A stretch of 64,000 bases of DNA from Agrobacterium tumefaciens (lineage in GTDB: Bacteria > Pseudomonadota > Alphaproteobacteria > Rhizobiales > Rhizobiaceae), in assembly GCF_005221385.1 (NCBI RefSeq), contig NZ_CP039903.1, positions 1,178,001 to 1,242,000 on the forward strand, given 5' to 3'. The notes beneath the pieces are model-generated. The model was not told the origin of the DNA, did not search any database, and saw only the letters and a program-made list of their open reading frames with translations. The translations under genes were made by a program, and so were the position numbers. This document shows positions 24,895 to 55,741 of the stretch, one piece after another (the first letter of the stretch is position 1; every line of letters starts with the position of its first letter).

Positions 24895-24906
24895 GCACTC
24901 ATGCGC
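24895..24906 (-). promoter_or_regulatory. Phage late-unit element GCGCATGAGTGC, copy 1 (endolysin operon)
   Basis: Minus-strand exact copy, 24 nt upstream of the endolysin ATG. A TATTGAAAC stretch lies about 11-17 nt upstream of it. A partial copy (GCGCATGA) sits at 24925-24932 in the same orientation. Confidence 0.65.
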
Positions 24907-24977
24907 TAGCGATGTGTTTCAATATCATGCGCCAGTTGTTGCAACAATCCGCCAAATCCAGTATTTAGAGAGCAGAT

Positions 24978-24989
24978 GCGCATGAGTGC
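24978..24989 (+). promoter_or_regulatory. Phage late-unit element GCGCATGAGTGC, copy 2 (capsid operon)
   Basis: Plus-strand exact copy, 29 nt upstream of the capsid ATG. GTATTTAGAG lies just upstream as a -10-like sequence. It is divergent from copy 1, 71 bp away. Confidence 0.65.
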
Positions 24990-25018
24990 TGTTTGATCCT
25001 GAACCGGAGACATCACTC

Positions 25019-26116
25019 ATGACCAAGACTGTGGTTGCCTTTGGCGATCCGAAAGCGCAGAAAAAGTGGTCTGGCGCGCTCTTCATCGACATCACCAAGA
25101 AAAGCTATTGGGACCGTAAGTTTATCGGCACGTCCGATGAATATGCGATCCAGCGTCTGACCGACCTCGAGTCGGAAGCGGGCGACCAGATCAGCTTCGA
25201 CTTGTCGGTGCAGCTCCGCAACCGCCCGACCTATGGCGACCAGCGCCTCGAGGGCAAGGAAGAAAGCCTTCGCTTCTTCACCGACCAGATCAAGATCGAC
25301 CAGATGCGCCACGGCGTCTCTGCTGGCGGCAAGATGAGCCGCAAGCGTACCGCCCACAACATGCGCCAGGTCGGCAAGAACCGCCTCTCCGACTATTGGT
25401 CGAAGTTCAACGATCAGATGATCTTCATCTACATGTCCGGCGCACGCGGCATCAATGAAGACTTCATCGAAACGACGGCATGGGCTGGCCACGCCGAGAA
25501 CCCGATAGAAGCGCCCGACGCAGATCATATCCTTTACGGCGGCGATGCGACCGCTAAGGCAAACCTCGATTCGGCGGACATCATGTCCCGCGCTGTGATC
25601 GAGCGCGCACAGACCAAGGCCCGCATGATGTCGGCCAAGGATCCGAAGAACGCCAACATGATGCCCATCATGATCAATGGCGAAGCGCACTACGTCTGCG
25701 TCATGAACCCCTTCCAGGAATATGACCTGCGCAACAAGGATCAGGGCGGCTGGCTCGAAATCCAGAAGGCCGCCGCGGCTGCCGAAGGACGCGCAAGCCC
25801 GATCTTCAAGGGCGGCCTCGGGATGATCGGCAATACGGTCCTGCACAGCCATGAATGGGGCATTCGCTTCAACGACTACGGCGCTGGCGGCAATGTCGCC
25901 GCTGGTCGCGCGCTCTTCATCGGCCGTCAGGGCGGTGTCATCGCCTTCGGTTCCGCCGGCGGCTTCCGCTACACTTGGACGGAAGAAACCAAGGACCACG
26001 GCAATGAGCCGGTCGTTGCTTCTGGCGTCATCGCCGGCGTCAAGAAGACCCGCTTCAACGGTCGCGACTATGGCGTGATGTCGATCGACACCGCAGCCGT
26101 CGATCCCAACGCCTGA
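25019..26116 (+). CDS. Major capsid protein, N4-gp56 family
   Basis: The 365-residue protein matches the N4-gp56/phage-capsid-like family. Its segments SKLTD-like YAIQRLTDLESEAGDQISFDL, SRKRTAHNMRQVGKNRLSDYWSK and GMIGNTVLHSHEWGIRF are the characteristic ones, and its length is normal. It forms the HK97-fold icosahedral shell. The ATG at 25019 with ACCGGAG upstream is chosen over an in-frame codon 11 residues earlier. It leads the plus-strand virion operon. The scaffold and portal genes are about 31 kb away on the other strand, which is unusual. Confidence 0.88.
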   Translation: MTKTVVAFGDPKAQKKWSGALFIDITKKSYWDRKFIGTSDEYAIQRLTDLESEAGDQISFDLSVQLRNRPTYGDQRLEGKEESLRFFTDQIKIDQMRHGVSAGGKMSRKRTAHNMRQVGKNRLSDYWSKFNDQMIFIYMSGARGINEDFIETTAWAGHAENPIEAPDADHILYGGDATAKANLDSADIMSRAVIERAQTKARMMSAKDPKNANMMPIMINGEAHYVCVMNPFQEYDLRNKDQGGWLEIQKAAAAAEGRASPIFKGGLGMIGNTVLHSHEWGIRFNDYGAGGNVAAGRALFIGRQGGVIAFGSAGGFRYTWTEETKDHGNEPVVASGVIAGVKKTRFNGRDYGVMSIDTAAVDPNA

Positions 26117-26188
26117 TGACCTGCCCGGGGTTCGCCCCGGGCTTTATCCGCTTCGCCACCGCGACACGAACTCCAAAGGAACACGCTC

Positions 26189-26650
26189 ATGACGCTCATT
26201 CTGAGCAAATATGCCAAAGGGACCGAACCCCTTTCCTACCCGTCCACGGCTGGCGAAGCTGTTGCCATCCGCTTTTCGCACCAGCTCACCGCCGCGCCCG
26301 CCGCTGGTGACATTCTCGAGTTGGCCTGCATCCCGTCCAATTGCCGTGTCGCAGAAATCATCGTCGATATGGATGATCTCGACACCAACGGCGCTCCCAC
26401 CGTTCTTTTCGACGTGGGCATCATGAGCGCAACGTTTGGTCTGGAAGATAACGCCCGCACCTGCGGCGCGGAATTCTTCTCCGGCTCCAATCTGGCGCAG
26501 GCAGGCGGCGTCGCTCGTCCGACACTGAAGACCGCATACCGCACCACTGCCTCAAACGTGGATCGCGGCATCGGCGTGAAATTCACGACGGTCGCGGCCA
26601 CCTTCGCTCCGGGTATTATCGGGCTGACTGTTTTCCTCACCAGCGAGTAA
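26189..26650 (+). CDS. Capsid-associated structural protein (possible decoration protein)
   Basis: The 153-residue protein has no obvious enzymatic motif. It is rich in short beta-type segments, with Thr/Ala/Gly dominance, typical of virion proteins. It follows the capsid gene by 72 bp and precedes a strong terminator, so it is probably made at capsid-like levels. A head decoration or fibre role is inferred from position only. Confidence 0.6.
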   Translation: MTLILSKYAKGTEPLSYPSTAGEAVAIRFSHQLTAAPAAGDILELACIPSNCRVAEIIVDMDDLDTNGAPTVLFDVGIMSATFGLEDNARTCGAEFFSGSNLAQAGGVARPTLKTAYRTTASNVDRGIGVKFTTVAATFAPGIIGLTVFLTSE

Positions 26651-26672
26651 GCCCCTCAAGGCTGGATGTGGC

Positions 26673-26697: not shown

Positions 26698-26712
26698 TTC
26701 AAGGAGTGAACT

Positions 26713-27168: not shown

Positions 27169-27171
27169 GCC

Positions 27172-30709: not shown

Positions 30710-30718
30710 GGTAAACAC

Positions 30719-33744: not shown

Positions 33745-33756
33745 GCGCATGAGTGC
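33745..33756 (+). promoter_or_regulatory. Phage late-unit element GCGCATGAGTGC, copy 3 (S74 virion gene)
   Basis: Plus-strand exact copy, 26 nt upstream of the ATG at 33783, in the only sizeable gap of this part of the operon. CTATAAGAAA lies about 11 nt upstream as a -10-like sequence. It would give the three downstream genes their own promoter or control point. Confidence 0.65.
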
Positions 33757-33782
33757 ACTTCAATTCTCGAAGAGGCACATCC

Positions 33783-34949
33783 ATGGGCAAAGGCAGCTCC
33801 TCCGCACCGGCTCCCGATCCGCAGATCGGCGCAGCGGCACTCAAACAGGCAGAAACGGGCGAAGCGTGGCTGAGTTTTGCCCGAGACGCATTTGCGATCT
33901 CGCAGGACCGACAGAAAGAACTCGACGATCTCACCAACAAGGTGACGCAGCAACAGCTGGGGCTCGCAACGGATCAGGCCAATTGGTCGCGAGAGGATCG
34001 GAACCGATATAATTCGGTCTACAAACCCATCGAAGACGACTTCATCAAGGAAGCGACCAATTACGCGACAGAGGAGCGGCAATCCGAAGCTGCAGCCGAG
34101 GCCCGCGCCGACGTCCAGACCGCCGCAGCGAATAACCGGGCCGCAACGGAGCGCGCAAATTCGTCCATGGGCGTCACGCCGGGCAGCGGGCGCTTCGCAG
34201 GGGTGCAGGCCGCATCCGATCTCGGAACGACGCTGGCGGAGGCTGGAGCGGCCAACACGTCCCGGCAGGCGGTGCGTGATAAAGGTCTCGCCCTCAAAGC
34301 CGACGTGGTCAATCTTGGCAAAGGCCTTCCGGCACAAGCTGCCGCCGGCGCCGGAGGCAGCGTCGCGGCGAGCGGCGCAGCACTTGGCGGTGCGCAGGGA
34401 ACGAACAGCCAGGCACTCGCAGCATCCACGATTATGAACGCTGGGTACGGCGGCGCGATGCAGGGTTACGCTGGTCAGGCAAGCACGCTGAACCAGCAGT
34501 ATGGCCTGCAACTCGAGGGCTGGAAGGCGCAGCAGCAGATGAAAGCGCAGAATGCGGCTGGCATAGGCAGCTTCCTAGGCGGCGTTGGCGGACTGATCTT
34601 CTCCGACGAGGAGCTGAAGGAGAACAAGGAGGAGATTGGCGAGGGCGAAGCCCTTGATGCTCTCAACTCCATGCCGGTCGAAGAATGGGACTACAAGGAA
34701 GGGGTGGCTGACGGAGGCCACCACATCGGCACCTATGCGCAGGACTTCCAGCGCGCCACCGGCAAAGGTGACGGCAAGACGATCCCGGTGCAGGACGCAA
34801 TCGGCATCACAATGAAGGCGGTGCAGGACCTCGACACCAAGCTCGATGCGACGATTGAAGCTTTCGGACTTGGCGGCGTTGAGCCGATCGGGCAAAATGC
34901 GTCCACAACATCCAAAAAGAAGAAATTGCCGGAGGCTTATAGTGCCTAG
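33783..34949 (+). CDS. Virion protein with C-terminal S74 intramolecular chaperone
   Basis: The 388-residue protein has a helical N-terminal region (RDAFAISQDRQKELDDLTNK), a long Ala/Gly-rich middle and a C-terminal S74-type domain. The S74 domain starts FSDEELKENKEEIG, where Ser and Lys match the SDxRLK catalytic pair, and continues with GTYAQDFQ and DAIGITMKAVQDLDTKL. S74 domains trimerise and then cut themselves off mature spikes or fibres. Its presence on an internal/ejection-type protein next to the giant gene is notable. GAGG precedes the ATG and control element copy 3 lies just upstream. Confidence 0.75.
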   Translation: MGKGSSSAPAPDPQIGAAALKQAETGEAWLSFARDAFAISQDRQKELDDLTNKVTQQQLGLATDQANWSREDRNRYNSVYKPIEDDFIKEATNYATEERQSEAAAEARADVQTAAANNRAATERANSSMGVTPGSGRFAGVQAASDLGTTLAEAGAANTSRQAVRDKGLALKADVVNLGKGLPAQAAAGAGGSVAASGAALGGAQGTNSQALAASTIMNAGYGGAMQGYAGQASTLNQQYGLQLEGWKAQQQMKAQNAAGIGSFLGGVGGLIFSDEELKENKEEIGEGEALDALNSMPVEEWDYKEGVADGGHHIGTYAQDFQRATGKGDGKTIPVQDAIGITMKAVQDLDTKLDATIEAFGLGGVEPIGQNASTTSKKKKLPEAYSA

Positions 34950-37020: not shown

Positions 37021-37048
37021 GGCGTCATCGGTCTTGGTGACTGACGCC
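37021..37048. terminator. Bidirectional terminator between convergent virion genes
   Basis: GGCGTCA (37021-37027) and TGACGCC (37042-37048) are perfect 7-bp complements around a 14-nt loop, exactly in the 46-bp gap between the convergent genes. There is no U-run on either side, so termination efficiency is uncertain. ATCGAT inside TCTATCGATAGA-like sequence lies next to it. Confidence 0.45.
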
Positions 37049-40000
37049 TATCGATAGACCGGATCGGCCAGCCTGTCGCGCAGCGCCGATCCGAGAGCCT
37101 TATTCCCGATCAGAACCCCATCTTCCCGCTTCGCGGCATTTGTTGTCCGCGTCTTGATCGAGCGCTTGAGCGTTTCGGCCTTAATCGGGAACCCTGCATG
37201 CACCTTCACCGCATTGAAGGCCTTGATGCCGTCCAGCGCCTCGCCCGCGGCCTCTTTATCTCCCGCCATTGTCGCCATCGCCCACTTGTTGATCAGCCTC
37301 TGACGCTTCTGCTTCACGCGGGTTTCGGCGTTCTTCAGGGCGCTGTTGCGGTCCCACGTCTCGGAGATTTTCGCCGGGGTGAAGCCCATCGCCTGGGCAA
37401 CGATGTCCGTTGCGTCGATCTGGTCGGCCGGGAGTATCTGATCCTTGCCGATCGTCGCGAGACCGTCCTGCGAGTAGCGGTAAGCCTTCATCAAGTCCCG
37501 CACCGCCTTTGGCGCCATCATTTCGATGCCGCGGGCGATATCGCCGTCGTCCGTCATGACCTTGAAGCCAGTATAGAGCTGTTCGCCAAGGCTGACGGTC
37601 GCCCCGAGGCTCTGCGAGAGCCAGTATTGGAACTCGGCCTTGCCCTGCAACTCGCGCGTCGGCGACCGGAACCACAGATCCGGCATGCCGATGCGCGACG
37701 ACAGGTCGATGCCGAGATAATGACCCGGGACACCGTTCAGCAGCACACCGCCCAGCTGGGGACCGAGGATGTCCACCACGTCAGCCTTGAACTGATCCTC
37801 GAACGCCATCGGGTCATCATCATCACCGAACAGCGCGCCTGCAATCATCATGGCGACGCTGAACCCCATCGTGCCGGTGACACCCGCCATAGCGGTCATC
37901 ATACCCATTACGCCGGCGAGCTGGTACCGCGCCTCGCGGCGGGCCTGCGGCGTCTCGCCCTTGAACGACTGGTGGATATCGCGGATCACGCGATACAGCA
38001 TGTTAATGTTGTGCTGGCGGAACACCAGAGCGACCTTGGCGAAGTCGTTCTGCAGCACCGCAGGCCTCGAGCTGTTGGAATAGTCGAAATGGGTTTTCCA
38101 TGTCAGGTCGTGGGCCGTGTCGATCGCCTCCGACATGTTCTGCCCCGCCTCGCGCGCCATGCGATAGGCGGCCAGCGCCGTCACCTCGCGGTTCCAGACC
38201 TCGGCGCGGTGGAACGCCCACGAAATCTTTTCCATGACCTTGGCGCGCAGCGGCGTGTATTCCACCCCTGTTTCGCCGACGCCGGCAAGGTCGTGGCTCT
38301 GCGTCCTGTCGATCAGGCCGGATTCGTAGAAGGCTTCCATAGCCCGCTTCTCATCGCCGGAGAGCCGGTCGCTGACTACGCTGCCGCGGCCGGCGACTGA
38401 ATCGGCTGATGCCTTTCTGATCGCTGCCGCCGCGCCCCTGAACCCGCCGAACTTTGCCGCCAGCACAGGTAGACCCAGCATGACGGTTTGCGTCATGTTC
38501 ACCAGCGCCGCGCCGGGAGATGCAGCCAGGTACCAGACGAATGCCATGCTGGTCATTGTCTGCGCCACCTTGCTGCCGGTCGGGTTCATTACCCAATCGT
38601 GCCGCTTCGACAACTCGTTGGCGAGCGTCATGGCCTTGGTCTGGTCATCCGCTTCCTTCGCCTGATCAACGGTCTTGTTCACCAGCTCCTGCAGCTCGAG
38701 GCCATATTTGAGGCGTGCCATCTGGTGAGCGGCATGGAACATGTGTGACGAGAACACGCGCAGCGCGTCCTTGCTGAAACCGGACGTACCCTTGCGGTGG
38801 ATAAACCGTTTGCGGGTGGACAGGTCCGGCATCGACTCGAGGTAACGCTGCCAGATCTGATCCATCACATCGCCGCCGATATTTGCGCCGCCGAGAATTT
38901 CCTCTATCTCGGCGACGATGCGCGGGTCCATGGCCTTGCGCATGTCGCTGCCAGCCTCCATCACGCCCACCTCGACCTTGCCGGCCGGGTATTCGTCGCG
39001 CATCTCGCGCGCCATCCGGTCGCGCTCGGCAACGTTCTCGTGCTTCGAGAAGCTGAGAATGGCACCGTCGATGTCTCGCACCGTGACGAAGTATCGGCCG
39101 AAACGGCCCAAGGGGAAATACGGGGGCTGCACCCGGCTGGCTTCGAACGCCACGCGCATCCGTGTCAGTCTGGCCTTGGCCGCCCAGCGCGATTTCGTGG
39201 TTTCCGCCTTGTATGCGCTGGTGGCGTCTTCTTCGGCGTTCTTCTTGTCGAGGCCGGTCAGCCCCACATCCTTGATGCGCTGCATGGTCCGCTTGTACCG
39301 GTCCTCTGCGTTCTGCTGCGCGATTTCCTGCGCCTTCCGGACGTTGTCGAGCAGGATCTCGTCGAGCTGCTCGGCCTGCTCGCGATAGGCGTCACGGACG
39401 TTCTGGAAAAGCTCCCTGCCCTTCGGGGGCAACGCCATATACCGCTTGCGGAGATAGTCATAACCAGCCTTCGCGCGGGTCTCTTCATCGACTTGCGAAG
39501 GATCGATCCCCGCCAGCGTGGCGTCATGCATCAGATCGGCCAAGACCTGCGCTTTTGCCTTGTCCTTTCCGGCAAAGCCCAGGCGGGTGTATTTGAGCCA
39601 TTCCTGTGCCACGGCATCCGCCTCGGCATGTTTCGTGCCTCGGAACGCATCCATCAGCCGCTTGACGCGGAGATAGTCGCCCACCGCTGTCATGTTGGAG
39701 CGAGCCAACTCGCTGAAATAGTTCAATGGGATGGTTTTCAGGAGAGCGGGCTGAAAATCGGTCAGCTTGCCGCTCAGTTCCTCGACGATGCGGGACTGTG
39801 TTACTCGCTCGACGCGTCGGGGCTCGCGCTCGGCTCGGCGCTCTTTTCCCTGATAATTTGGCGAGCCTGTTTCAGATAGCCCTGCCGGTCCGGATCGCGG
39901 GCGGGCCACTGGCTCACCGATGCGTGCCAGTCCTTCCACTTCTGCAACGTGTCGAACGTCGCGGGCGGGTCGCCGTGAAATCCCCTGATTGTTGTCTGTG

Positions 40001-43000: not shown

Positions 43001-46000
43001 TCATAGTTCGGATCAATGCCGATGCGGCCGAACGAGGAGTGCGCAACAATGACGGCGTCCCAATCGCCGGTGGCGATGCGGGCGAAGAGCCGCTTGCGGC
43101 GATCCTTCTCAAAATCCTGTTTCGTTGCTGCCAGCACCTTGGCACCGGGATAGAGCCGGACGAAATCTGCGGCCCACTGGCCCACCAGATGGTTCGGAAC
43201 AGCGAGCATGGGCTTGCGGGCCTGCCCGATGCGGCGCTTTTCCATGATGGAAGCGATGGCGGCGAATGTCTTCCCCGCGCCAACGGTATGATCGGCAAGA
43301 GCGGTGCCGCTCTGCAGCGTCCGCCAGATGAAGTTCTTCTGGCTCGGGCGAAGCTCAATGATGTCATCGCCCACTTTGCCCGGGAGCGTGAGGTGCGAGC
43401 CGTCGAACTGCTGGATGACGTCGGTATTGAACGTGTCGTTATAGAGCCGCGCCAGCTCGTCGCGGCGCTTGTCGTCCTGCCACAGCCACTTGCGCCACTC
43501 TGCCTTGACGCGCTCGGCTTTCTCGTTCGCCGCATCCGTAGCGGCCTGATTGACCACGGATTTACCGTCGGTGGTGCGATCATGGATGGTGATGGTCTGA
43601 CCGTTCAGCACGGCACTCAAAACGGTGCCGACGCCTGCCCTGTCGGTTCCCCATTGCGTCTGCGCCGCTGGCGTAACCTGCGGGACTGTGACGTCCCATT
43701 TCGCATTGGCGGCGGAATAGAACGCCCGCGGCTTTACCGCGCCCTGCCCAATTTGGCTGATGAAGTCTTCGACGTGGGTAGCAGGCAGCCACGGCGCACC
43801 CGGTTTAACATCGATGTCGATCGCCTCGATGTCTGCCGGGATGACGTCGCGCAGCGCATTCACGTTGCGTCGAAACTCGGTATCATGCTCTGCGGCACGC
43901 TCCGCCTCGGCCAGCTTCTGCTTTACGTTGCCGGAGAGATACTGGTCGGCGGTCTCATACGCGCCGGTCGGGGTCCGGTAGACCAGCGGGCCCAGCTCGT
44001 CGACTATGGCGCCCACCGTCTTGCCGTAGAGCTGCGACATGGCCTCGAGGTTGACCCGGCCATAGTCGTTGAGCACCGTGGCGAGGGCATCCTTCGCACT
44101 GGTGGCACTGGTCGGGCGGCGATAAGGCTGCTGGGTGCGGCGGGAGAAAATAGCCGCTTTCTCAGCCGACGGCACACGGGCCTTCTCGCCAGTTTTCTTT
44201 GCCATCGCGGCGCTGAGGCCCTTATCGAACGACTGCTCGAGCGCGCTTATCTGCGGCCATGTCGGATCGTCTCGGAACAGGCGTTTGTTTGCGTCAGAAT
44301 TGACAGGACCGTGAGACTTTACAAAGCCATCGTACAGACTGTTCAACCTGTTTCTTAGGTTTTCAATCTGCTGATCGCTGGCGGTATCGCTGATCTGTGC
44401 CCGCCGGAGCTTGGCAAAGGCGTCGCGGACACGGATCATGCCGGAGACGCGCTCCTTGGCCGTTTCGTTCGGGAACGCCACCGCCTGCGAGGTCGGCTGG
44501 CCGATATGATCGGCGGTGCGCAGATGGATTGAGCCATCCGGCGCGGCAAACATGGTGCCAACCTGCACGTCATTGACGGTTTCCGGCACGGTGACAGTTT
44601 CTGTCACCCTCGCTGGGCCTGTATCGCCCATGATGTCCTGCGGCAGCTTCTCGATGGCCTTTGCCAGCTCCGCCGGTGTGTCCTGTCCGCCGCGTGCGAC
44701 CAATGCAGGATCGTTCGGTCCATACATGGAACCGTAGCCGCCGAAATCGCCCAGCATCATGTCAGGATTGTTCGCAAAATACTTGTTGAGCGGCACCGTG
44801 TTGCCGTCCTTGCCGCGATAATCCACGACCTCGAGCCACTCGCTCGATTTTGGAGCCGTGCCCTCCTCACGGCGCTGCAGGATGACGATGTCCGTCGTCA
44901 CCTCGGTACCGGCGTTCTTGAGGAAAGCGTTGTTCGGCAACCGGATCGCACCGATGAAATCGGCCTTGCTCTGGATCATGTTGCGCGCCGCGGCTGACTG
45001 CCCGTCGAGGAAACGATTGGTCACGACCATGGCAAGCACGCCGCCCGGGCGCAGCGTCTCGATCGCCTTTGCGAAGAAGAAGTTATGGATGGACAGCTTG
45101 TTGAGGTGTGTCCGATCCTTGTCGTAAAGCCTCTCCGAACCAAACGGGGGGTTGCCGATCGCTAGATCAAAATAGGAATCGGGCACGGTCAGCTTCTCAA
45201 AGCCGATCGGGGCCTGAATATTGGCGTTGGGGTAGAGGTTCTTGGCGATCGTGCCGGTGATGCGATCCAGCTCGACGCCGGTAACACGAGACGCACCGCG
45301 CAAATCGCCTGGCATCAGCCCGAGGAAGTTACCAGCACCGACGGACGGCTCAAGGATTTGCCCACCCTTGAAGCCGAGACGCTGCGCTATGGCCCATGCC
45401 GCATCGACGATCTCCGGCGCGGTGTAATGCGCGTTGCGGGTCGAGGACTCGGCCGCGCTGTATTCCTCCTTGGACAGCAGCTCCTTGAGCTGGGCGGCTT
45501 CCTTCTCCCAGCCTTTCGCCACGCTGCCATCTTCACGCGGGAATGCGGCACGCAGGCCGCCCCAGCCTACCCACTTGGCGAGAACCGCCTGTTCGTCGCG
45601 GGTCGCAGGCCTGTTATCCTGCTCAAGCTGCTTCACCAGTTCGATAGCGGCCACGTTGGAGCGGAACTTGGCCTTCTGGCCGCCCTCGCCCAAGCCGTCG
45701 GCATCGCTGATGACGTAATCTGCCGGCCGCTGCTGCGCGGGCACTGCGGCGGATTGGACATCCTTGAGGGTCGATGATATATTTTCATCGGTGCTGGTCT
45801 GTCGGCTAGCGATGGCATCCGACAGGTTTGTAGAGGCGGTGTCTGACCTGGCGCTTTTACCAGCACTCTTTCCCGACGATGCAGGCGTAGACCGGCCTGC
45901 CCATATTTCACTGAGGCGGCGTGAACTTCTCTCGGTGCGTCGGGGCGTGTTGGTGTCATACGCGGTGAGCAGCCACGTTTTTGCATTGCGATCGTAGTCA

Positions 46001-49000
46001 AGCCTGATGCCAGCGCGTCCATTTTCGCTGACGAGCTGGATGCGGCGCTCTGTTCTGGACGCTGGATCGACGCGCAAGCCGTCGATAAACCCTTGCAGAT
46101 CTTCCAAGACTTCCGGATGCCAGGCGATAAGCTTTGCAAGGCCGGAACCGTCGTGCTGGTTGTTCCCCGCTCTGCCCCATACCAGATCGATGGGACCAAC
46201 ATCGGGGTGAGACAACGCACCAATGGCGTCACCGGTCTGTCGGCGCTCAAGCTCGAGTGCCGCGTCACGCCACTTGCCCTCAAAGCCGCGAAGGATCGGC
46301 CCGAACGGGCCTTCTTCTACCTGATCTCGACGGTTCTCTGGCCGCTGCGCGCCGCGCTCATCAGATCCTGCGAAGTTGGGCTGGCCGTTTCGGCCTGCTG
46401 GTTGCCTTCCGGCGGCAGCAGGAGATAGTTCTCCCTGACCATCTGCCACGCCTCGTCCGGCTGGAACCCGCTCTGCTCGAGCTGGTCTGCCTCCTGATAC
46501 GTCAGTTCCGCTGCCGTCTTCAACGCGTCGTCCAGTATCCCGGCCGTTTTCAGTTCCCGATACCGGTTCGGCAGGAACTCCTTCCAGTGCTGGCGCCCCA
46601 GCTCGATCCAGTTGTTCAGGTTCATTGGTAGCTCCGGTGAGGGTGTTGACATCGGTCGCTTCGACCTCTGCCGCACTCGACATGCCGTCGAATGCCGTGG
46701 CGCGAGGATCGTACTTAACCCCCATATACCACGATTTGAGGTAAGGGCGCGCGCCCTCGCCAAGGTCCGCCAGCATAGCCGAAGCATATGCAGCGAAGGT
46801 GCGCGCACCTTTCTCGATGTGATAGCCGGCAAGTGTGATCCCGGCCTGCAACAGCTCCGGGTCGATGCCGCTGTTCAGCGTATTGCCCGAAAGCTTCTTG
46901 CGAAGCAACTCACGCGCCTTGGCTGCAGCGTCGTCGGTGAAGAGCTTATTTTCCGAGACAATCGGTTTTGCCTTCGGTGCAACGATATCTGCTCTTCGGT
47001 CCGCCTTATCGGCGACTGGCGGGATCGTATCGGTGGAACCTAGGTTTTTATCTGCGGACGAGGCCTCCCGCGCCTCTGCTTCGCGCTCCAATATCTCAAA
47101 CCTTTTGCCACGCTGCACAACCTCATGGGTCTTGCCCATCTGGTTCTTCGCAACATAGCCTTCGGCCTTCTCCTGCGATGCAAACCACTTCGGCGCGAAC
47201 GGCTCGGTGGTTTTGCCTGATTTCAGCCAGGTCTTGAAGTCGCCGAGTGTGGTCTGGCTGATATCGCCCAGCCCCTTCCAGTCGGCGGTGTAGTTTTCGA
47301 GATATGCGGCGCGGGCCTGCGCCTCGTTGTCGAACCCTGCCATAACCTTGTGTTCATCAAAACGACCGCGTGCCGGGTCTTTCTGGTCAACGACAAACAC
47401 GGGCGAGGAATCGTCGAGCGTCTCGGTACCGGGCCGCACAAACACGTCGATATGGTCTTTGTCCCGCCCCACGGTGCCGCGAATGTAGCCGTAATGGCTC
47501 TTCATATCGACGGACCAAGCCTTGCCCGACGATGACACACCCTTACGCTGCGAACCTGCAGGGTTCTCGATCGAGATATCGAGGCCGCCTAGTTTCAGTC
47601 GGCCGACCTTGTAGTTTCCGGCTTCCTTCTGTGCTGCTGTCGGCTCTGGCAGATCGTTTGTTGGAGACGTGGCTGCCTCGTTTGCCGCTGCATCTGCCTG
47701 CATGGCTTCCGCATGATCCGGGTACACTGCGCCATCGTCTTGGCCGATTTCATCGGCGATCGCCCGCATCTTCGCGGACACCTCGTCCTCACCGGATAGC
47801 GTGGCAACATCGTCCACCGCTGCGCGCTGCGCGTCCCGCACATCCAGCAGCTTCTTCTTGATGCCAGGTGTCATGCCCTGCCACATCATGCGCTCGGAGC
47901 GCTTCACGCCAGCCTGTTCCAGCACGCGCTTGCGGTCCTGCGCGGTCGAATCGACGTCCCACCACGTAGCGCCGTCATCGGCCGGCTGCACCAGCGGTTC
48001 GTTTGCCTCTTTCGCCCGCGCCGCCTGCCGCTGCTTCAACAGCCGGTCATTGAGGGCATTCATCTTGAAGGGAAGCGTGGACTTCGCCTGTTTCGCGGCA
48101 CGCTCCACCCTGAACCGATAGTCATCAGCCACAGCGCCAACGTCGTCAAAGGAGATACCAAACTTGTCCGCCAGCTCTCGCTGTGCTGCTCGAGACCCAA
48201 ACTGCAACCGTTCACCGTCATTACCGAACCGGGACCGACCATGGGTCCGCATCTCAAATAGACGCTGGTTCGCGAAGTCGTAGAGCGCCGCATGATTGTC
48301 GTCTGGCAAGATTACGGTGGCTTCGCCCAGCTTGCGGCTATTTGGACCGGCATCGCCGATCTCACGCTCGATCGGCGGGTTGCGCTCGAGGTCCTGCGCC
48401 TCGACCTGCGCCATCGTAAGGCTGCTGACCTTGAGGGCCGTCGTCGGCACCTGAAACGGGTTCCCCTTGTCGTCGACAACGAGCGCCTCATTGCCCTCGT
48501 TCTCGTAACGCTCGATGCGCGCCGGGAACCTGCCAACTTCCGGGCTATCCACGATGACACGGTGACCGGGTTGCGGCCTTAGTGGCCGTTTGTCGGTCGC
48601 TGCCATATCCTCGCTGCGCGGAGGCATCTCGGACGTCGTCTCGCTACCCATGGGAGCCAAGGGCTCGAGCGCCGGATCTGCGGACAGTTCCGGCATGCCG
48701 TCTTCCGCCTTTTCGGGGAACCGGTAGTCGCCAACTGGCGGTGCGATCTCGGTGATGTTGGCAATCGGCACCTGGAACACTTCGCCGCTGCCGGAATCGA
48801 CGATGATGGCCTCACCGCCCTCGTAGCCTTCAACGGTGCCCATGAATGGCTCGACGCCTTCCGCCTCAACGCGGACCGTCGATTTTGTGGCTGGCCGCCC
48901 ATCAATCGGGGCACCAGCGTCCGCCGCTGTAGCACGCTCCGCTTCACGCTTCTGCCCATGCTCGGCAGCGCGGCCCAATGGACCACGTCTGACAGGCTCC

Positions 49001-51414
49001 GGCTCAATAGGTGCGGGTCCAACTGCTGCGGTACCGCCAGAAGGTCGAGCGAGACCGCCAGCACCACCCATACCGCCACCCATGGCGCCACCGGCCGCGA
49101 TACCAGACGCCACGGATTCGCCGAGACCTTCGGTCAACTCCTGATCCGGATTGACGCGGCGCATGGCTGCGTTCTCGGAAATAGTCTGGCCGGCGCTCTG
49201 CGGAGCTTCCTCGAGCAAGCCTTCGGCCACAGCACCGCGTGCCATGCCTGTGGCAACACGACGCGCAACACCACCCTCGACGCCCTCGGCGATGATCTTC
49301 GCCAGCGCGCGATCGCCGAAACCACCGAACGCGCCGGTAACAACGCCTGCGGTGATGAGGGCCTGCGTCTGCGCGTCACTGCTGACTGCATCGATGGCCG
49401 CCTGTTCCGACATGCCGCTGTCGATGAGCTGCTTGATGGCATCGGATTGCACGAGCTGGTCACGCGGGATTTGGGCGATACGCTGCTTGACGGACAAGGC
49501 CGCGTCAGCACCGCCCAGCAGCCCCTCAGTAATGCCGCCCGCGAGCGTGGCCGTCTTGGCCGCGGTAGCTGCGGCAACTTCCTTCGATGCGCCACCAGCG
49601 AGCGTCGTAACGAAAGCACCGCGTGCCAGAATACCGGATGGCAGCATGCTTGCGACGGTGGACGGACCGCTTTCGGCGATGGTGCCAAGATAGCTGCGCG
49701 GATCGGTCCATGCAGGTCCCAGCGTTCCCTTTTCGTCGTCCCACCATTTCTTGTCGCGCGCCGCCTCGCCTTCCGGCGAAAGCGTGGCGTTCTGGCGGTC
49801 GATGCTCTCCTGCCGCTTCTCGGCAACTGTGGTGCCGCCGCCCATCCAGCGGTCAATGCCGTCCAGCGCGTCGTTGATGTATGTACCGCCCGGGATCTTG
49901 TTCAGCAGGAGGTTGCCAAGGTTATCGAGCGACTGGCTGGTGTTCGCCGCACCCACGCCCCAACGGCGCACCAAGTCGCCAGCGGTGCCGCTGGATCGGT
50001 TCTCCTTGTCCCACTGCTCCTGCCACGTGGCGAGCTGGCTCTCCGGCACTTCCTGAAATCGGCCCGGGGTCTTGGCCTCGAGGCCAGCCAATTGCCCCGC
50101 CACCGCGTCATTGTTGGCGCTCACCTCGCCGGCGACACGCTGGCGCTCGGTCTCCGCCGTCGCCTGCGCTTCTGCCGTGCGCTTGGCCTCTGCCGCGCTG
50201 GCGGCGTCCTGTTCAAATGGGTTGGGCTGGCCTGCATACAGACCAAGGGGGTCATTGCCCTTGAAAGCCTCGTCTGCGACGACGCCCTTCGGTTTGGCCG
50301 CCTGCCCGGGATTGGCTGCAATCTCCTGAAACCACGCTGGTGCTTTTGCGAGGTTCTTATTGCTCTTGTCGTGCATGAACCACGGCGTGCCCTTGCCGGT
50401 CTGATCCTTCATGTCGACGTGCAGCATGTCGGGGCTGCTGGTGTAGGTGATGAAGCGACGCGCGCCGCGAGAATACAGTTCGCGGACGAGCTGGCCGCGT
50501 TCAGCCTCGCTCATGCCCTTCATCGAGATATCGGATGCTGTGCCGGTGGAATGCTCGCCCGGTCCGCCAGCCTTGGAGGCTTCGACACGATGCGACGGCG
50601 ACCGGTAGCCGGAATTGATTGTGAAATCGCGACCCATCGCCTTCGACGTCTCGGAAAGGATCGAGGCGAACTGCGGATTGATCTTATCCTGACCGGCATG
50701 CACGAAGTTCAGCTTGCCGCCGGTGCCGATTGGCGCGTCTTCCGGCTCGCGGACGAGGCGGGCCAGCCCCTTACCGTTCGGGTTCGGGACCTTTGTACCC
50801 TTCCCTTCATCGCCCTGGAGAAGATCGCGGAACTGCCCCTTGGGACCGTAGAGGCCCAAATCATCCTTTTCGGCGACGAATGCCGTAGCGTCGGGAGCGG
50901 CAACCTTCTTCTCGCCCTTCGAATTGTAATAGATATGCTGGCCGATGCGCGTAGTTTCCGGCATGGCGCTGGCCCAGCCCGGGTTTACCGACGTTGCATG
51001 ATAGTGGTCAGCGCCTCCGGTCGGATCGGGACCATCACCGGTCAGCACATTGCGCAAGATGCCCTCGGCGCGGGCGCGCATGGCAGGATCGCGCATAGCC
51101 TCGACGGTCTTTGCGCCCGGGCTGGCGTAGCCGGTGAACTGATCCGGCTCTCGCACGACGTCGCCGATGGACTTGCCGCGGATGTTGGAACGATTGCGGA
51201 TGACGTGAGCCACGCCGGCCATACCGTCATCGCCCTCGCCTGCTGCCTCGGCAATCACCGTGTTGACCGTATCATCCCAATCGCGCTGAGACATGCCCGC
51301 GGGCAATGTGCTGGATGTATCGGTCTTGGGAGAAAGCCCCGGCGCTTCGCCACCATAGAGGTTCAGGGGATCATTCCACTCGGCGTTGCCGCCAAGACCG
51401 ACGATGATAGGCAT
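37048..51414 (-). CDS. Giant polyvalent phage protein (4788 aa; wall hydrolases, N6-methyltransferase, SNF2 helicase, JAMM, LPD38-like)
   Basis: A single frame of 4788 residues with no interruption. Visible modules: SleB-like cell-wall hydrolase (about 40-165); M15-type D,D-peptidase (about 250-340, GEHSTGTASD and LHVD); hydrophobic Gly/Ala-rich segments (600-850); InPase-like polyvalent domain (about 1270-1395, GRDKDHIDVFV); N6-adenine methyltransferase (WVGWGGLRAAFP near 1948, NPPFG near 2086); SNF2-type helicase (VGAGKTF near 2713, DEAHEF near 2873, GRGVRQGN near 3268); JAMM-like protease (HNHPSNTPLSVAD near 3663); hydrophobic LPD38-like C-terminal end (about 4430-4650). Such proteins are packed in virions and injected with DNA, as for P1 DarB. 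ATG at 51414 has AGGAG 8 nt upstream and control element copy 4 beyond that. Confidence 0.9.
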   Translation of the reverse strand: MPIIVGLGGNAEWNDPLNLYGGEAPGLSPKTDTSSTLPAGMSQRDWDDTVNTVIAEAAGEGDDGMAGVAHVIRNRSNIRGKSIGDVVREPDQFTGYASPGAKTVEAMRDPAMRARAEGILRNVLTGDGPDPTGGADHYHATSVNPGWASAMPETTRIGQHIYYNSKGEKKVAAPDATAFVAEKDDLGLYGPKGQFRDLLQGDEGKGTKVPNPNGKGLARLVREPEDAPIGTGGKLNFVHAGQDKINPQFASILSETSKAMGRDFTINSGYRSPSHRVEASKAGGPGEHSTGTASDISMKGMSEAERGQLVRELYSRGARRFITYTSSPDMLHVDMKDQTGKGTPWFMHDKSNKNLAKAPAWFQEIAANPGQAAKPKGVVADEAFKGNDPLGLYAGQPNPFEQDAASAAEAKRTAEAQATAETERQRVAGEVSANNDAVAGQLAGLEAKTPGRFQEVPESQLATWQEQWDKENRSSGTAGDLVRRWGVGAANTSQSLDNLGNLLLNKIPGGTYINDALDGIDRWMGGGTTVAEKRQESIDRQNATLSPEGEAARDKKWWDDEKGTLGPAWTDPRSYLGTIAESGPSTVASMLPSGILARGAFVTTLAGGASKEVAAATAAKTATLAGGITEGLLGGADAALSVKQRIAQIPRDQLVQSDAIKQLIDSGMSEQAAIDAVSSDAQTQALITAGVVTGAFGGFGDRALAKIIAEGVEGGVARRVATGMARGAVAEGLLEEAPQSAGQTISENAAMRRVNPDQELTEGLGESVASGIAAGGAMGGGMGGAGGLARPSGGTAAVGPAPIEPEPVRRGPLGRAAEHGQKREAERATAADAGAPIDGRPATKSTVRVEAEGVEPFMGTVEGYEGGEAIIVDSGSGEVFQVPIANITEIAPPVGDYRFPEKAEDGMPELSADPALEPLAPMGSETTSEMPPRSEDMAATDKRPLRPQPGHRVIVDSPEVGRFPARIERYENEGNEALVVDDKGNPFQVPTTALKVSSLTMAQVEAQDLERNPPIEREIGDAGPNSRKLGEATVILPDDNHAALYDFANQRLFEMRTHGRSRFGNDGERLQFGSRAAQRELADKFGISFDDVGAVADDYRFRVERAAKQAKSTLPFKMNALNDRLLKQRQAARAKEANEPLVQPADDGATWWDVDSTAQDRKRVLEQAGVKRSERMMWQGMTPGIKKKLLDVRDAQRAAVDDVATLSGEDEVSAKMRAIADEIGQDDGAVYPDHAEAMQADAAANEAATSPTNDLPEPTAAQKEAGNYKVGRLKLGGLDISIENPAGSQRKGVSSSGKAWSVDMKSHYGYIRGTVGRDKDHIDVFVRPGTETLDDSSPVFVVDQKDPARGRFDEHKVMAGFDNEAQARAAYLENYTADWKGLGDISQTTLGDFKTWLKSGKTTEPFAPKWFASQEKAEGYVAKNQMGKTHEVVQRGKRFEILEREAEAREASSADKNLGSTDTIPPVADKADRRADIVAPKAKPIVSENKLFTDDAAAKARELLRKKLSGNTLNSGIDPELLQAGITLAGYHIEKGARTFAAYASAMLADLGEGARPYLKSWYMGVKYDPRATAFDGMSSAAEVEATDVNTLTGATNEPEQLDRAGAPALEGVPAEPVSGTENGRDTGRRVEDGSGTDVSGGRPARAERVPAGRGVADGQGELSPAAAGRQPAGRNGQPNFAGSDERGAQRPENRRDQVEEGPFGPILRGFEGKWRDAALELERRQTGDAIGALSHPDVGPIDLVWGRAGNNQHDGSGLAKLIAWHPEVLEDLQGFIDGLRVDPASRTERRIQLVSENGRAGIRLDYDRNAKTWLLTAYDTNTPRRTERSSRRLSEIWAGRSTPASSGKSAGKSARSDTASTNLSDAIASRQTSTDENISSTLKDVQSAAVPAQQRPADYVISDADGLGEGGQKAKFRSNVAAIELVKQLEQDNRPATRDEQAVLAKWVGWGGLRAAFPREDGSVAKGWEKEAAQLKELLSKEEYSAAESSTRNAHYTAPEIVDAAWAIAQRLGFKGGQILEPSVGAGNFLGLMPGDLRGASRVTGVELDRITGTIAKNLYPNANIQAPIGFEKLTVPDSYFDLAIGNPPFGSERLYDKDRTHLNKLSIHNFFFAKAIETLRPGGVLAMVVTNRFLDGQSAAARNMIQSKADFIGAIRLPNNAFLKNAGTEVTTDIVILQRREEGTAPKSSEWLEVVDYRGKDGNTVPLNKYFANNPDMMLGDFGGYGSMYGPNDPALVARGGQDTPAELAKAIEKLPQDIMGDTGPARVTETVTVPETVNDVQVGTMFAAPDGSIHLRTADHIGQPTSQAVAFPNETAKERVSGMIRVRDAFAKLRRAQISDTASDQQIENLRNRLNSLYDGFVKSHGPVNSDANKRLFRDDPTWPQISALEQSFDKGLSAAMAKKTGEKARVPSAEKAAIFSRRTQQPYRRPTSATSAKDALATVLNDYGRVNLEAMSQLYGKTVGAIVDELGPLVYRTPTGAYETADQYLSGNVKQKLAEAERAAEHDTEFRRNVNALRDVIPADIEAIDIDVKPGAPWLPATHVEDFISQIGQGAVKPRAFYSAANAKWDVTVPQVTPAAQTQWGTDRAGVGTVLSAVLNGQTITIHDRTTDGKSVVNQAATDAANEKAERVKAEWRKWLWQDDKRRDELARLYNDTFNTDVIQQFDGSHLTLPGKVGDDIIELRPSQKNFIWRTLQSGTALADHTVGAGKTFAAIASIMEKRRIGQARKPMLAVPNHLVGQWAADFVRLYPGAKVLAATKQDFEKDRRKRLFARIATGDWDAVIVAHSSFGRIGIDPNYEAKFIQQQMDDLEASLAEVRRETGAKSRNVAQLTKWRDNLKAKMERLLDSGRKDDGLTFDELGVDALYVDEAHEFKNLAYSTSMQRVAGLGNMAGSAKAADLYMKSRFVLEKTGGNNLVFLTGTPLSNTMAEMFTVQRYLDEQALRAMGVSHFDAWARVFGEVVTDWELSPSGQYKLNSRFAKFVNVPELMQRYRSFADVITNDDIKAQLAALGKVFPLPKVKGGKPTNVVVERSPDQAAFIGEGQPDDDGNLVFPRGSLVWRAENLPKKAEKGKDNMLKVMSDARKAALDMRLIDPSYQDHPKSKVHRAANEMTRIYKASTDQRGTQLVFIDLSTPKKAQAAEAARLRDLMEKADNGDEAAIEALDKVSPDELLALESTFSVYDDLKQKLIDRGIPENEIAFIHDASTEAQKEELFGKVRSGRVRFLFGSTAKMGAGTNVQNRLVALHHLDAPWRPSDLEQRDGRGVRQGNELYAADPEGFEIEILRYATKNTLDARQWQTIEAKARFIQQVRKGDMKTREIEDIAGEAANAAEMKAAASGNPLILEEMDTRRKLRQLEGKSVEHDREQHRIKGKIKSLESEAERLQRNMPAVEADAELASNAPAEFTGTVNGETFDKRKEFGAAIIAAMRKELIDKEGVRDIGEYAGFKIGIDPLGYGRAFNVTLEAGREYTVPVDDASDVDAAGLAQRIVNTVKRLANLPAFEKERAAEIKGQIPDLQKQIGVWEGAQELADTATRHRSLLDALKPQPKGKKPAVKVEAGEVDAPIANKRPDPVVIALSNDLQTVGIPAAPASTAIFQWAKDTVARFGRNGHEYLMAVDDDGSVVEFGTAKKKDATGINNKLHGALLNPDRRMVVFHNHPSNTPLSVADISMLAMPGLHSVWAFGSNGMQMRAALTPEAEAVARPASDPNETVATWRSAMADALEQVDAFLRPLVAQGVVDVETGNEAYSSAPSLLAEKAGIIDISSNTKYDVSAIEGLDAKLDKLAVAIKEQVSDGTTDNNQGISRRPARDVRHVAEVEGLARIGEPVARPRSGPAGLSETGSPNYQGKERRAEREPRRVERVTQSRIVEELSGKLTDFQPALLKTIPLNYFSELARSNMTAVGDYLRVKRLMDAFRGTKHAEADAVAQEWLKYTRLGFAGKDKAKAQVLADLMHDATLAGIDPSQVDEETRAKAGYDYLRKRYMALPPKGRELFQNVRDAYREQAEQLDEILLDNVRKAQEIAQQNAEDRYKRTMQRIKDVGLTGLDKKNAEEDATSAYKAETTKSRWAAKARLTRMRVAFEASRVQPPYFPLGRFGRYFVTVRDIDGAILSFSKHENVAERDRMAREMRDEYPAGKVEVGVMEAGSDMRKAMDPRIVAEIEEILGGANIGGDVMDQIWQRYLESMPDLSTRKRFIHRKGTSGFSKDALRVFSSHMFHAAHQMARLKYGLELQELVNKTVDQAKEADDQTKAMTLANELSKRHDWVMNPTGSKVAQTMTSMAFVWYLAASPGAALVNMTQTVMLGLPVLAAKFGGFRGAAAAIRKASADSVAGRGSVVSDRLSGDEKRAMEAFYESGLIDRTQSHDLAGVGETGVEYTPLRAKVMEKISWAFHRAEVWNREVTALAAYRMAREAGQNMSEAIDTAHDLTWKTHFDYSNSSRPAVLQNDFAKVALVFRQHNINMLYRVIRDIHQSFKGETPQARREARYQLAGVMGMMTAMAGVTGTMGFSVAMMIAGALFGDDDDPMAFEDQFKADVVDILGPQLGGVLLNGVPGHYLGIDLSSRIGMPDLWFRSPTRELQGKAEFQYWLSQSLGATVSLGEQLYTGFKVMTDDGDIARGIEMMAPKAVRDLMKAYRYSQDGLATIGKDQILPADQIDATDIVAQAMGFTPAKISETWDRNSALKNAETRVKQKRQRLINKWAMATMAGDKEAAGEALDGIKAFNAVKVHAGFPIKAETLKRSIKTRTTNAAKREDGVLIGNKALGSALRDRLADPVYR

Positions 51415-51443
51415 GCGTGGGCTCCTGCAAAAACAAGGATGCC

Positions 51444-51455
51444 GCACTCATGCGC
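51444..51455 (-). promoter_or_regulatory. Phage late-unit element GCGCATGAGTGC, copy 4 (giant gene)
   Basis: Minus-strand exact copy, 29 nt upstream of the giant-gene ATG. CAATTATAACC lies about 14 nt upstream as a -10-like sequence. It also lies 52 bp from the divergent small gene at 51507, which it could influence. Confidence 0.65.
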
Positions 51456-54578: not shown

Positions 54579-55396
54579 GCGGCACCTATCGTGGTGCGCA
54601 GCCATGCTACCGCTGCAAGCATCTCCGCTTTGGTCGGTTTCTTTCGGATGATGATCATACGGGCCACTTGCCCGTTCCAGCCACGCGTAAAGGCTGGGTT
54701 GTTACCAAGGATCAGCGCATCAGCTACGTTGTCGACATAATTGCCAGCCGGAAGGGTGCCCGGAGCTTTAGCCTTGTAGGGGCCATCGTTCAGCACGTAC
54801 TCGAAGACATTTGGGTTATCAGCCGAATAGTGGATGCCGACGACATGCCAGGCGTTGAGCGGCAGCGTTTCATCCAGCTGCATTGAGGGGTTGGTTGTCG
54901 AGAACGCTGCACCGAGTGCGCCGGCCGGAATGCCACCGACGAGACCGGCGATACCAAACCGGTCCGGCGTTCCCGTTGAACCCTTGTTGAAAACGCGACC
55001 GAAGCCACCGCCGCCTGTCGTTACAGCCTTGGTGGCCATCAGAATAAACGACCCTTGACCGGCGAACATGTTGTCGACGGCCGAGTGATCGCCGGAGCTG
55101 GTCAGCCGATGCGAGGACGCCGACAGAAAGTTCAATGCAGCTTTCCCGTTCGGGGTGGCGGCGGTCATGTATGTCGGCTGATTGGTGGCACCCGCCAGCG
55201 TCATGCCTTTGCGGTCAGTGATGGCGGACACAGCGGCACCGTTTGCAACAGTGCCGCGCAGCGTCTCCGGATCAAGGTCAAATGCGGCAGACGCAATCAG
55301 GGCGTCTACATCAACGATCCGCTTCCTGTTTCTCCGCCCTAGAGACTGATCTAGTCCCTTCAACCTTCTATCACTCCGCAGCCGGCGCATCGACAT
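54575..55396 (-). CDS. LamG/concanavalin-like tail structural protein
   Basis: The 273-residue protein has a basic N-terminal linker (MRRLRSDRRLKGLDQSLGRR) and a concanavalin-like jelly-roll. The jelly-roll has FDLDPETLRG, NFLSASSHRLTSSG, GSFILMATKAV, NAWHVVGIHY and ALILGNN, with the strand order of phage LamG-type sugar-binding domains. ATG at 55396 overlaps the previous stop (TAATG). It precedes the tailspike gene, so it probably forms the host-recognition complex with it. Confidence 0.7.
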   Translation of the reverse strand: MSMRRLRSDRRLKGLDQSLGRRNRKRIVDVDALIASAAFDLDPETLRGTVANGAAVSAITDRKGMTLAGATNQPTYMTAATPNGKAALNFLSASSHRLTSSGDHSAVDNMFAGQGSFILMATKAVTTGGGGFGRVFNKGSTGTPDRFGIAGLVGGIPAGALGAAFSTTNPSMQLDETLPLNAWHVVGIHYSADNPNVFEYVLNDGPYKAKAPGTLPAGNYVDNVADALILGNNPAFTRGWNGQVARMIIIRKKPTKAEMLAAVAWLRTTIGAA

Positions 55397-55707
55397 TAGG
55401 CCTGCACCCACGCAAGCTTGTCGCCCGGCTTCACATACAGGTCGTGCGGCGCATTCGCCGCCAGAAGCACATGACGCGGGCTGACGCCGGCGTTCGGCGC
55501 AGATGCGTGTGACACATAGATATCGACGGTGTTGGTGACGCGGAGAACCGGAACAAGGCCATCCTTGTCCGTCGCGCGGCTCGTGGTGGGGGTGTTGGCG
55601 GCGGGTTCTTCGGACCACTGCGGATCCTTGAAGAGAGGCTGCTTGTCCTTGGCATTGCCGTCGCCACCAGCATAACCACAGATTACATGCACTTGCGGGA
55701 GAGCCAT
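55396..55707 (-). CDS. Small virion-operon protein, function unknown
   Basis: The 103-residue protein begins MALPQVHVICGYAGGDGNAKD and ends VKPGDKLAWVQA, and has several short beta-type stretches such as LVPVLRVTNTVDIYVSHA. A structural tail-unit role is inferred from operon position. It is the first gene after control element copy 5. Confidence 0.6.
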   Translation of the reverse strand: MALPQVHVICGYAGGDGNAKDKQPLFKDPQWSEEPAANTPTTSRATDKDGLVPVLRVTNTVDIYVSHASAPNAGVSPRHVLLAANAPHDLYVKPGDKLAWVQA

Positions 55708-55729
55708 TCGCTATATCCTTTTGCGAAGG

Positions 55730-55741
55730 GCACTCATGCGC
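55730..55741 (-). promoter_or_regulatory. Phage late-unit element GCGCATGAGTGC, copy 5 (tail-tip/spike operon)
   Basis: Minus-strand exact copy, 22 nt upstream of the ATG at 55707. CCGGTATATTGC lies about 14 nt upstream as a -10-like sequence. It separates the spike operon from the upstream scaffold/portal/terminase genes. Confidence 0.65.

Follow-up and report, generated by a model that had tools for sequence, protein, structure and literature searches.

Why should a single prophage set the same 12 nucleotides (nt) in front of five late transcription units, on both strands and always shortly before a start codon? The question is raised by a 64,000-nt stretch of the Agrobacterium tumefaciens genome (RefSeq assembly GCF_005221385.1, contig NZ_CP039903.1, positions 1,178,001 to 1,242,000 of the forward strand; hereafter the window, whose coordinates are used unless another record is named). 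A preliminary description of the window had listed the five copies and proposed three candidates for their nature: a late promoter element, an operator for a prophage repressor and a shared mRNA leader element. The results presented here support the last of these, through the hairpin that the element forms, the compensatory changes in its stem and the covariation of the motif with the arm that contains the ribosome-binding site (RBS). We consider it very probable that the shared 12-mer is an RNA leader element. Sequence comparisons indicate that its partner is likely to be a CsrA-like protein encoded in the same prophage, and the balance tips slightly towards a partner that activates translation. 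The combined proposal that we favour on balance is that the phage CsrA-like protein controls, and probably switches on, the translation of the phage's own late genes through a 5′ hairpin.

The element in the prophage and its relatives

All five exact copies were found again in the window, on the strands first given for them (Table 1), whereas dinucleotide shuffles predict a mean of 0.06 and none of 100 shuffles reached five. They are also the only exact occurrences in the host genome (5,515,917 bases in four contigs). Copies with up to two mismatches number 14 in the window, the five exact ones included, where 15.5 are expected, so that the enrichment is confined to the exact sequence. Every copy is in the sense orientation of the following gene, and its end lies 24 nt (endolysin), 29 nt (capsid), 26 nt (S74 virion protein), 29 nt (giant gene) or 22 nt (gene at 55.7 kb) before the start codon, in agreement with the 22–29 nt originally reported. 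The view that the units served are late prophage units holds, and the endolysin, capsid, S74 and giant genes were all confirmed; the designation of the fifth gene (55396–55707) as a tail gene was not, since PHROG and Pfam searches gave no family match for this open reading frame (ORF) of 103 amino acids (aa). Further along the same unit, a 605-aa ORF (52788–54605) has a weak tail-fibre match (E 0.0011).

The prophage groups with Agrobacterium phage Atu_ph08 (85.5% identity over 83% of a 24-kb query) and Sinorhizobium phage PBC5, POI1126 and the BcepIL02 group being more distant kin. The idea that the motif might be missing from related phages did not hold: the corresponding genes of Atu_ph08, PBC5 and POI1126 are preceded by the motif itself or by a sequence close to it. 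Atu_ph08 has four exact 12-mers in its first 45 kb, before the endolysin, capsid, S74 and giant genes. PBC5 has the exact 12-mer before its capsid and giant genes, a copy with one change before the S74 gene and GCGCATGACGTGC before the endolysin gene. The exact 12-mer was not found in the first 45 kb of POI1126, where GCGCATGA[C/T]GTGC precedes five genes, namely those for the capsid, a virion component, the S74 protein, the giant protein and the endolysin.

Some further occurrences and readings of the motif may be mentioned here. Across 297 genomes of the host's family the 12-mer is found about once per genome (175 of the 297 have one), and the reversed control is rare, so that the 12-mer is over-represented beyond prophages as well. 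The GTG inside the motif has been taken as a gene start in ORF lists (window positions 24986, 33753 and 51447) and in one related record (L065:18530); the likely ATG of these genes lies 26–29 nt downstream of the motif. A shared leader peptide beginning at the AUG of the motif (Met-Ser-Ala) was rejected, because the frames end differently in the five leaders. In PBC5 and two relatives (L064:961-972, L083:285-296, L147:253-264), the exact motif falls on the start codon of an integrase gene (GCGC-ATG-AGT-GC, protein MSALTDKQIK...); a protein bound at this site would obstruct the start rather than free it, a possible use of opposite sign.

The motif as a conserved RNA hairpin

Read as RNA, the 12-mer is GCGC-AUGA-GUGC, a hairpin of four base pairs with the loop AUGA (hairpin A). 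Ninety-one capsid loci were gathered by protein homology, without use of the motif, and their leaders were scanned for the pattern stem4-A[N]GA(N)-stem4, in which the stem is free and the A and GA are fixed; L136, L143 and L154 were left unscanned because the capsid start is not reached or the locus is too partial. In 79 of the remaining 88 loci, many of which are near-copies of one another, the capsid gene is preceded by a 4-bp hairpin with an A-N-G-A or A-N-G-A-N loop; the scan itself passed 80, L112 being excluded from the count because its match is unrelated. Among the eight failures, L132, L134, L135 and L141 carry an ANGGAN hexaloop and L104 an AUGAAC hexaloop, and a clear version of the hairpin was not found in the capsid leaders of L120, L128 and L131. 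The stems vary, with ACGC/GUGU, CCGC/GUGG, GCGC/GUGU and GCGC/GCGC among the variants. In 46 loci picked from the capsid loci together with the window, PBC5 and POI1126, there are 19 distinct hairpins, 18 of them fully paired, with compensatory changes in the stem: pair 1 occurs as G-C, G-U, A-U and C-G, pair 2 as C-G, G-C and U-G, and pair 3 as G-U and G-C, pair 4 and the G of pair 3 having been search conditions.

The four ANGGAN loci have the form GGGC-AUGGAY-GUCC or GUGC-AUGGAY-GCGC and make up one clade of the capsid tree, in which the L132 row, as excised, contains a stop at codon 2 and was retained. Hairpins with an ANGGAN loop are described as the target of RsmE (PMC7652899); with such loops in a sister clade, the family to which the window element belongs extends to textbook sites of the CsrA type. 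The window element resembles the RsmE/CsrA site in hcnA (PDB 2JPP; PMC7652899) in being a short hairpin whose loop begins with A-N-G; it differs in having one G fewer (ANGA), the ANGGAN clade apart, and in lying at the 5′ end rather than on the Shine–Dalgarno (SD) sequence. The canonical CsrA site, with its ANGGA(N) loop, is thus represented by L132, L134, L135 and L141 only, the window having AUGA. Across the 112 leaders described below, the variable loop position is T in 70, G in 26, A in 15 and C in one, the first A, the GA and the GCGC having been search conditions. The impression that the element was unlike anything described agrees with the Rfam searches: there was no match in the window at gathering scores, and in seven loci the four matches were far below gathering scores, none of them on the leader. 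A known RNA family was rejected for lack of an Rfam match.

A predicted second hairpin that hides the ribosome-binding site

The stretch between the SD sequence and the start codon, both included, can pair in most leaders with the 3′ half of the motif, which gives an alternative structure (hairpin B). In the capsid leader of the window, CAUGAGUG is complementary to CACUCAUG, spanning the start codon. As CAUG is self-complementary, the U that is common at the variable loop position would let the motif pair with the start codon. Since hairpins A and B both use the GUGC segment, they are mutually exclusive.

These structures were compared in 120 distinct leaders, reduced to 112 by a filter on ending and spacing (eight failed) and to 72 representatives by clustering; 23 motif matches had no qualifying start and were excluded, and the 13 representatives classed as 'other' include likely chance or mis-started rows (e.g. 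L224, L111 and L133), which were retained in the totals. In 65 of the 72, free folding favours hairpin B, its energy lying over 1 kcal/mol below that of an enforced hairpin A (means −18.2 and −11.1). Native leaders also fold better (−15.65 kcal/mol) than chimeras in which the two halves come from different leaders (−11.15 kcal/mol; permutation P at its floor of 5e-5), which argues for coordinated change of the motif and the RBS arms. By class, the test stays at the floor P for capsid (n=25), S74 (n=13) and 'other' (n=13) leaders, and gives P 0.016 for the giant (n=8), 0.034 for the endolysin (n=9) and 0.041 for the tail-unit leaders (n=4).

The fold z-scores of the window leaders range from −2.0 to −3.75. 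When the four motif leaders of Atu_ph08 were compared with 38 other gene starts, the leaders had the better folds (P 0.002) and more pairing of the RBS (P 0.0002); even so, four of the 38 equal the weakest motif leader in folding, and six equal the one with least pairing in that respect. The POI1126 S74 row of the fold control is wrong, having been measured at the annotated GTG in the motif and not at the likely ATG, and was retained. Hairpin A is the best fold of the growing RNA until about 21–24 nt past the motif (69% and 56% of leaders), the share being 19% at 30 nt. These computed folds suggest that most leaders can alternate between hairpin A, the proposed protein site, and hairpin B, in which the RBS is hidden. 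Several relatives have AUGAGG at the SD sequence of the capsid leader, a possible second ANGA site.

Position in the transcript, and a reading as DNA

The A/T-rich −10-like hexamers noted before each copy are present, 9–14 nt upstream. Among the 72 representative leaders, 35 of the 37 TATAAT-like hexamers (five or six matches, within 45 nt upstream) lie 8–20 nt from the motif; in the pattern-scan set of 54 loci, eight have a five-of-six match to TATAAT within 25 nt upstream. Transcripts from sigma70 promoters start about 7 nt after the −10 hexamer, and the position of the hexamers would accordingly bring the motif into roughly the first dozen bases of the RNA. Of the two hairpins, A would then be the earlier to form. 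The suggestion that the motif is near +1 therefore stands, for a start predicted from the upstream hexamers.

The proximity of these hexamers, the presence of copies on both strands and the identity of all five speak for a DNA element near +1, either a part of a late promoter or an operator bound by a phage regulator. We regard this as highly improbable. The spacing from the −10 hexamer varies (9–14 nt in the window and mostly 8–20 nt in the larger set), which speaks against the late promoter element of the preliminary description, as does the RNA-type covariation; the changes in the stem obey the pairing rules of RNA, G-U included, and the 3′ half of the motif follows the sequence around the start codon, features that also argue against the repressor operator. 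Variable spacing, a compensatory stem and a 3′ half that covaries with the start-codon region thus leave the DNA reading unsupported.

A CsrA-like protein encoded in the prophage

Bcep22-type phages are listed as carriers in a survey of CsrA (PMC7366521), which prompted a search for CsrA in the window. The search pointed to a 64-aa ORF, the proposed trans-acting factor, about 450 bases from the fifth copy of the motif. It follows the portal gene (57400–59640) and a 331-aa gene, an order that is the same in Atu_ph08, whose homologue is annotated as hypothetical. Ninety-two homologues were found. A profile of the window protein and 13 phage homologues matches RsmE (2jpp, E 2.9e-11) and CsrA (1y00, E 1.8e-8) in the PDB, and the top 13 PDB matches of an AlphaFold2 model (pLDDT 78.2, pTM 0.54) are all CsrA, RsmA or RsmE (Foldseek probability 0.99–1.00, E 0.04–0.14). 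Of the residues by which CsrA contacts RNA, L4 is kept in the window protein, and the R44 column holds isoleucine in that protein and R in a good part of its relatives. No Pfam CsrA match was obtained in the host genome with a search that also missed the divergent phage ORF; a host without such a match would make a regulon inside the phage the simpler reading.

An association of R at the R44 column with GGA loops (10/12 versus 2/15, Fisher 4e-4; LASTA, Pavtok, Mwe-JY07 and BcepIL02 proteins excluded from the table) was rejected, since the capsid tree offers four supported independent pairs and no significance. It is further weakened by Pavtok and Mwe-JY07, which have R together with AUGAC loops.

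Co-occurrence of the hairpin and the csrA-like gene

The csrA-like gene was detected in 28 of 29 records (16 of 27 with the Pfam model, 10 of 11 others with the phage profile, and two more records), some of the 29 having themselves supplied rows of that profile. The loose motif is present in 28 of the 29, with 124 matches, some of them chance hits inside genes, as compared with 13 for the reversed pattern. A set of 13 records, several of which are fragments and two of which were already counted, gave a Pfam CsrA match in seven, including all four ANGGAN loci. Among 16 named phages, nine have a csrA-like gene, and in each of the eight that share this capsid type the hairpin stands before the capsid gene, that of Skulduggery with the loop UGGAU. 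In seven distant capsid relatives, whose leaders were read by eye, neither a csrA-like gene nor a capsid-leader hairpin was detected. Seven phages already listed as carriers of CsrA (DC1, BcepIL02, Parlo, PEp14, Skulduggery, Pavtok and JC1) share the capsid type of the prophage.

Proposed mechanism

In the mechanism that we propose, a sigma70-like promoter would start the transcript a few bases upstream, and the RNA would begin with GCGC-AUGA-GUGC. The CsrA-like protein would bind hairpin A (GCGCAUGAGUGC as hairpin RNA) during transcription, much as CsrA and RsmE bind A-N-G-G-A. The bound hairpin A would prevent hairpin B from forming, and ribosomes could start on the mRNAs of the endolysin, capsid, S74, giant and 55.7-kb units; without the protein, the longer and more stable hairpin B would hide the ribosome site. 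We infer the binding of the hairpin by the CsrA-like protein, the transcript start and the activating direction. Late proteins such as that of the capsid have to be made in large amounts although their RBSs lie hidden in a stem that is under selection, and for this reason we favour activation. The coat-protein operators of RNA phages offer a parallel, in that a phage protein acting on a small hairpin controls translation of phage genes; they differ in concerning a single gene of an RNA genome, in acting by repression and in using an unrelated protein.

Closer precedents exist for the protein family. In Escherichia coli ymdA, CsrA opens a hairpin that hides the SD sequence (PMC7492729), and the same has been proposed for phz2 and moaA (PMC7652899). 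The system described here would share with ymdA a CsrA-family protein, a leader hairpin that hides the SD sequence and protein sites located within this hairpin and immediately upstream of it; such an alternative structure over the SD sequence or the start was indeed found, with the exceptions of L105, L106, L107 and L129. It would differ in that a minimal 5′-terminal hairpin contributes its own 3′ half to the RBS-hiding stem, the loop is ANGA, the protein is that of a phage and several late genes are served at once.

The same RNA element and a CsrA-like partner could also act in the opposite sense, a dimer bridging the 5′ hairpin and a GGA in the SD sequence and thereby delaying or balancing late synthesis. 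Repression is the commonest mode of CsrA (PMC7492729), and bridging is documented for sites 10–63 nt apart (PMC7652899), a range into which the spacing here fits; GGA occurs in the SD sequence of four of the five window leaders, in addition to the AUGAGG of the relatives. Nevertheless, hairpin B hides most RBSs even without protein, and its stem is kept by coordinated change, for which a repressor would have no need. We therefore think repression unlikely.

CsrA-type translational control is known; what would be new is that a phage uses it on late genes of its own. Phage-borne CsrA proteins of the same family as the 56186–56380 ORF have been described (PMC7366521, PMC8450108, PMC9144972, PMC11879866). 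In the excerpts considered they appear as a moron, as manipulators of the host or of CRISPR, or with a role not previously tested, and no target among the phage's own RNAs is named, in contrast with those proposed here. Thus, csrA of JC1 has been called a moron, with one CsrA peptide found in virions (PMC9144972), phage RsmA/CsrA has been proposed to repress CRISPR-Cas (PMC8450108), and host manipulation is assumed in both accounts (PMC8450108, PMC9144972). Knock-down of the csrA homologue of PTXU04 shrinks plaques, in a study that describes the role as not tested before (PMC11879866). The terms searched in the POI1126 (PMC5492332) and Atu_ph08 (PMC6630229) papers gave no mention of CsrA or of such a motif, and no literature tying phage CsrA to the phage's own leaders was found in a search outside which most subscription papers (e.g. 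that on the Bcep22/BcepIL02 genome) fell.

It seems to us an evenly balanced matter whether phage CsrA-like proteins with a rewired code (A-N-G-A for A-N-G-G-A) might be a master translational switch in a large group of tailed phages, and we judge in the same way that the capsid, tail, giant DarB-like and lysis mRNAs might be its targets, via near-identical 5′ hairpins. If so, this would be the main function of the CsrA proteins that are widespread among phages of this group, and a single small protein, with an RNA code of 12 nt, would control a viral late programme at the level of translation. The natural variants ANGA, ANGAN and ANGGAN would then constitute a ready set for studying the evolution of CsrA specificity.

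Evidence that weighs against a CsrA-like switch

Several observations count against the proposal. As regards the protein, the 64-aa ORF scores 20.9 bits with Pfam PF02599, below the cut-off of 27, for which reason we call it CsrA-like and not CsrA, and it has isoleucine at the column of the key R44 of CsrA. As regards the RNA, the AUGA loop of the window is without the GGA contacted by RsmE, and RBS pairing is weak in element 5, the weakest of the five window leaders, and in its relatives. Hairpin B stops before the RBS in four capsid leaders, those of PEp14 (L107), Parlo (L129) and two relatives (L105 and L106), with RBS–motif pairing of 0.00–0.04; these leaders are unexplained by an on-switch and fit neither simple model. 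The co-occurrence is partly a matter of inheritance, because the carriers share ancestry, and it is imperfect: in the G319/L137 record neither a csrA-like gene nor the loose motif was detected, yet a variant hairpin is present in its capsid leader, and its relatives L138 and L140, both fragments, gave no Pfam CsrA match. In csrA-negative phages the loose pattern gave six matches in five of seven records, as compared with one for the reversed pattern. Five of the six look like chance; the Vibrio phage douglas (L264, record 2250-2600) has GCGC-AAGA-GUGU atop a longer stem, 29 nt before the gene that follows the capsid gene. Conversely, csrA-positive PTXU04, which has another capsid type, shows no excess of ANGGA hairpins (two, versus zero to two in five shuffles) and no hairpin before its capsid gene. 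Finally, a published survey reports an association of phage RsmA/CsrA with hosts that possess an RsmA/CsrA themselves (PMC8450108), which favours host manipulation for many such phages and speaks against a role that is purely internal.

The similar hairpin before a virion gene in the csrA-negative Vibrio phage would suit an RNA leader that works without a CsrA-like protein, as a fixed or a temperature- or ribosome-sensitive RBS hairpin or as one read by a host factor, and so would the RBS-hiding fold, which is well supported. However, the strictly kept A-N-G-A loop and the compensatory 5′ stem would then be unexplained, as would the ANGGAN sister clade and the csrA-like gene in 28 of 29 records, and we hold this explanation to be improbable.

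The coliphage PTXU04 also has hairpins of the ANGGA(N) type at two places, GGGGCGC-AUGGA-GUGCCCC before gp03, a tail-fibre gene (L242:2640-2658), and UGGC-AAGGAC-GCCA before the holin-csrA pair (L242:30436-30449, minus strand). Their location is suggestive, the total being at chance level.

Features of the window

Table 1. Elements, putative promoter hexamers and genes discussed in the text (window coordinates)
Feature	Position	Strand	Evidence
Element 1, GCGC-AUGA-GUGC hairpin, endolysin leader	24895..24906 (full leader 24871-24906)	minus	−15.5 kcal/mol, z −2.63
−10-like hexamer TATTGA of element 1, 12 nt upstream	24919..24924	minus	sequence
Endolysin gene, 250 aa	24118..24870	minus	phrog_315 endolysin, E 7.2e-47
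Element 2, major capsid leader	24978..24989 (leader 24978-25018)	plus	−17.3 kcal/mol, z −3.75
−10-like hexamer TATTTA of element 2; TTGCAA 17 nt further upstream	24962..24967	plus	sequence
Major capsid gene, likely start ATG 25019	25019..26116	plus	phrog_334, E 1.5e-130
Element 3, S74 virion protein leader	33745..33756 (leader 33745-33782)	plus	−17.8 kcal/mol, z −3.65
Virion structural protein gene, Peptidase_S74 domain	33783..34949	plus	phrog_8003, E 7.8e-158; PF13884, E 1.8e-10
Element 4, giant gene leader	51444..51455 (leader 51415-51455)	minus	−22.6 kcal/mol, z −3.46
Giant DarB-like polyvalent protein gene, likely ATG start 51414	37048..51414	minus	phrog_10089, DarB-like antirestriction
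Element 5, leader of the 103-aa gene heading the 52.8-55.7 kb unit	55730..55741 (leader 55708-55741)	minus	−14.1 kcal/mol, z −2.00
103-aa ORF served by element 5	55396..55707	minus	PHROG and Pfam without match
Gene for a CsrA-like RNA-binding protein of 64 aa (the proposed trans-acting factor)	56186..56380	minus	Pfam CsrA 20.9 bits; PHROG CsrA-like, E 6e-4

The palindrome TTGTTGCAACAA (24936–24947) lies between the divergent endolysin and capsid promoters, and the −35-like hexamers of both fall within it. Several relatives have TTATTGCAACAA.

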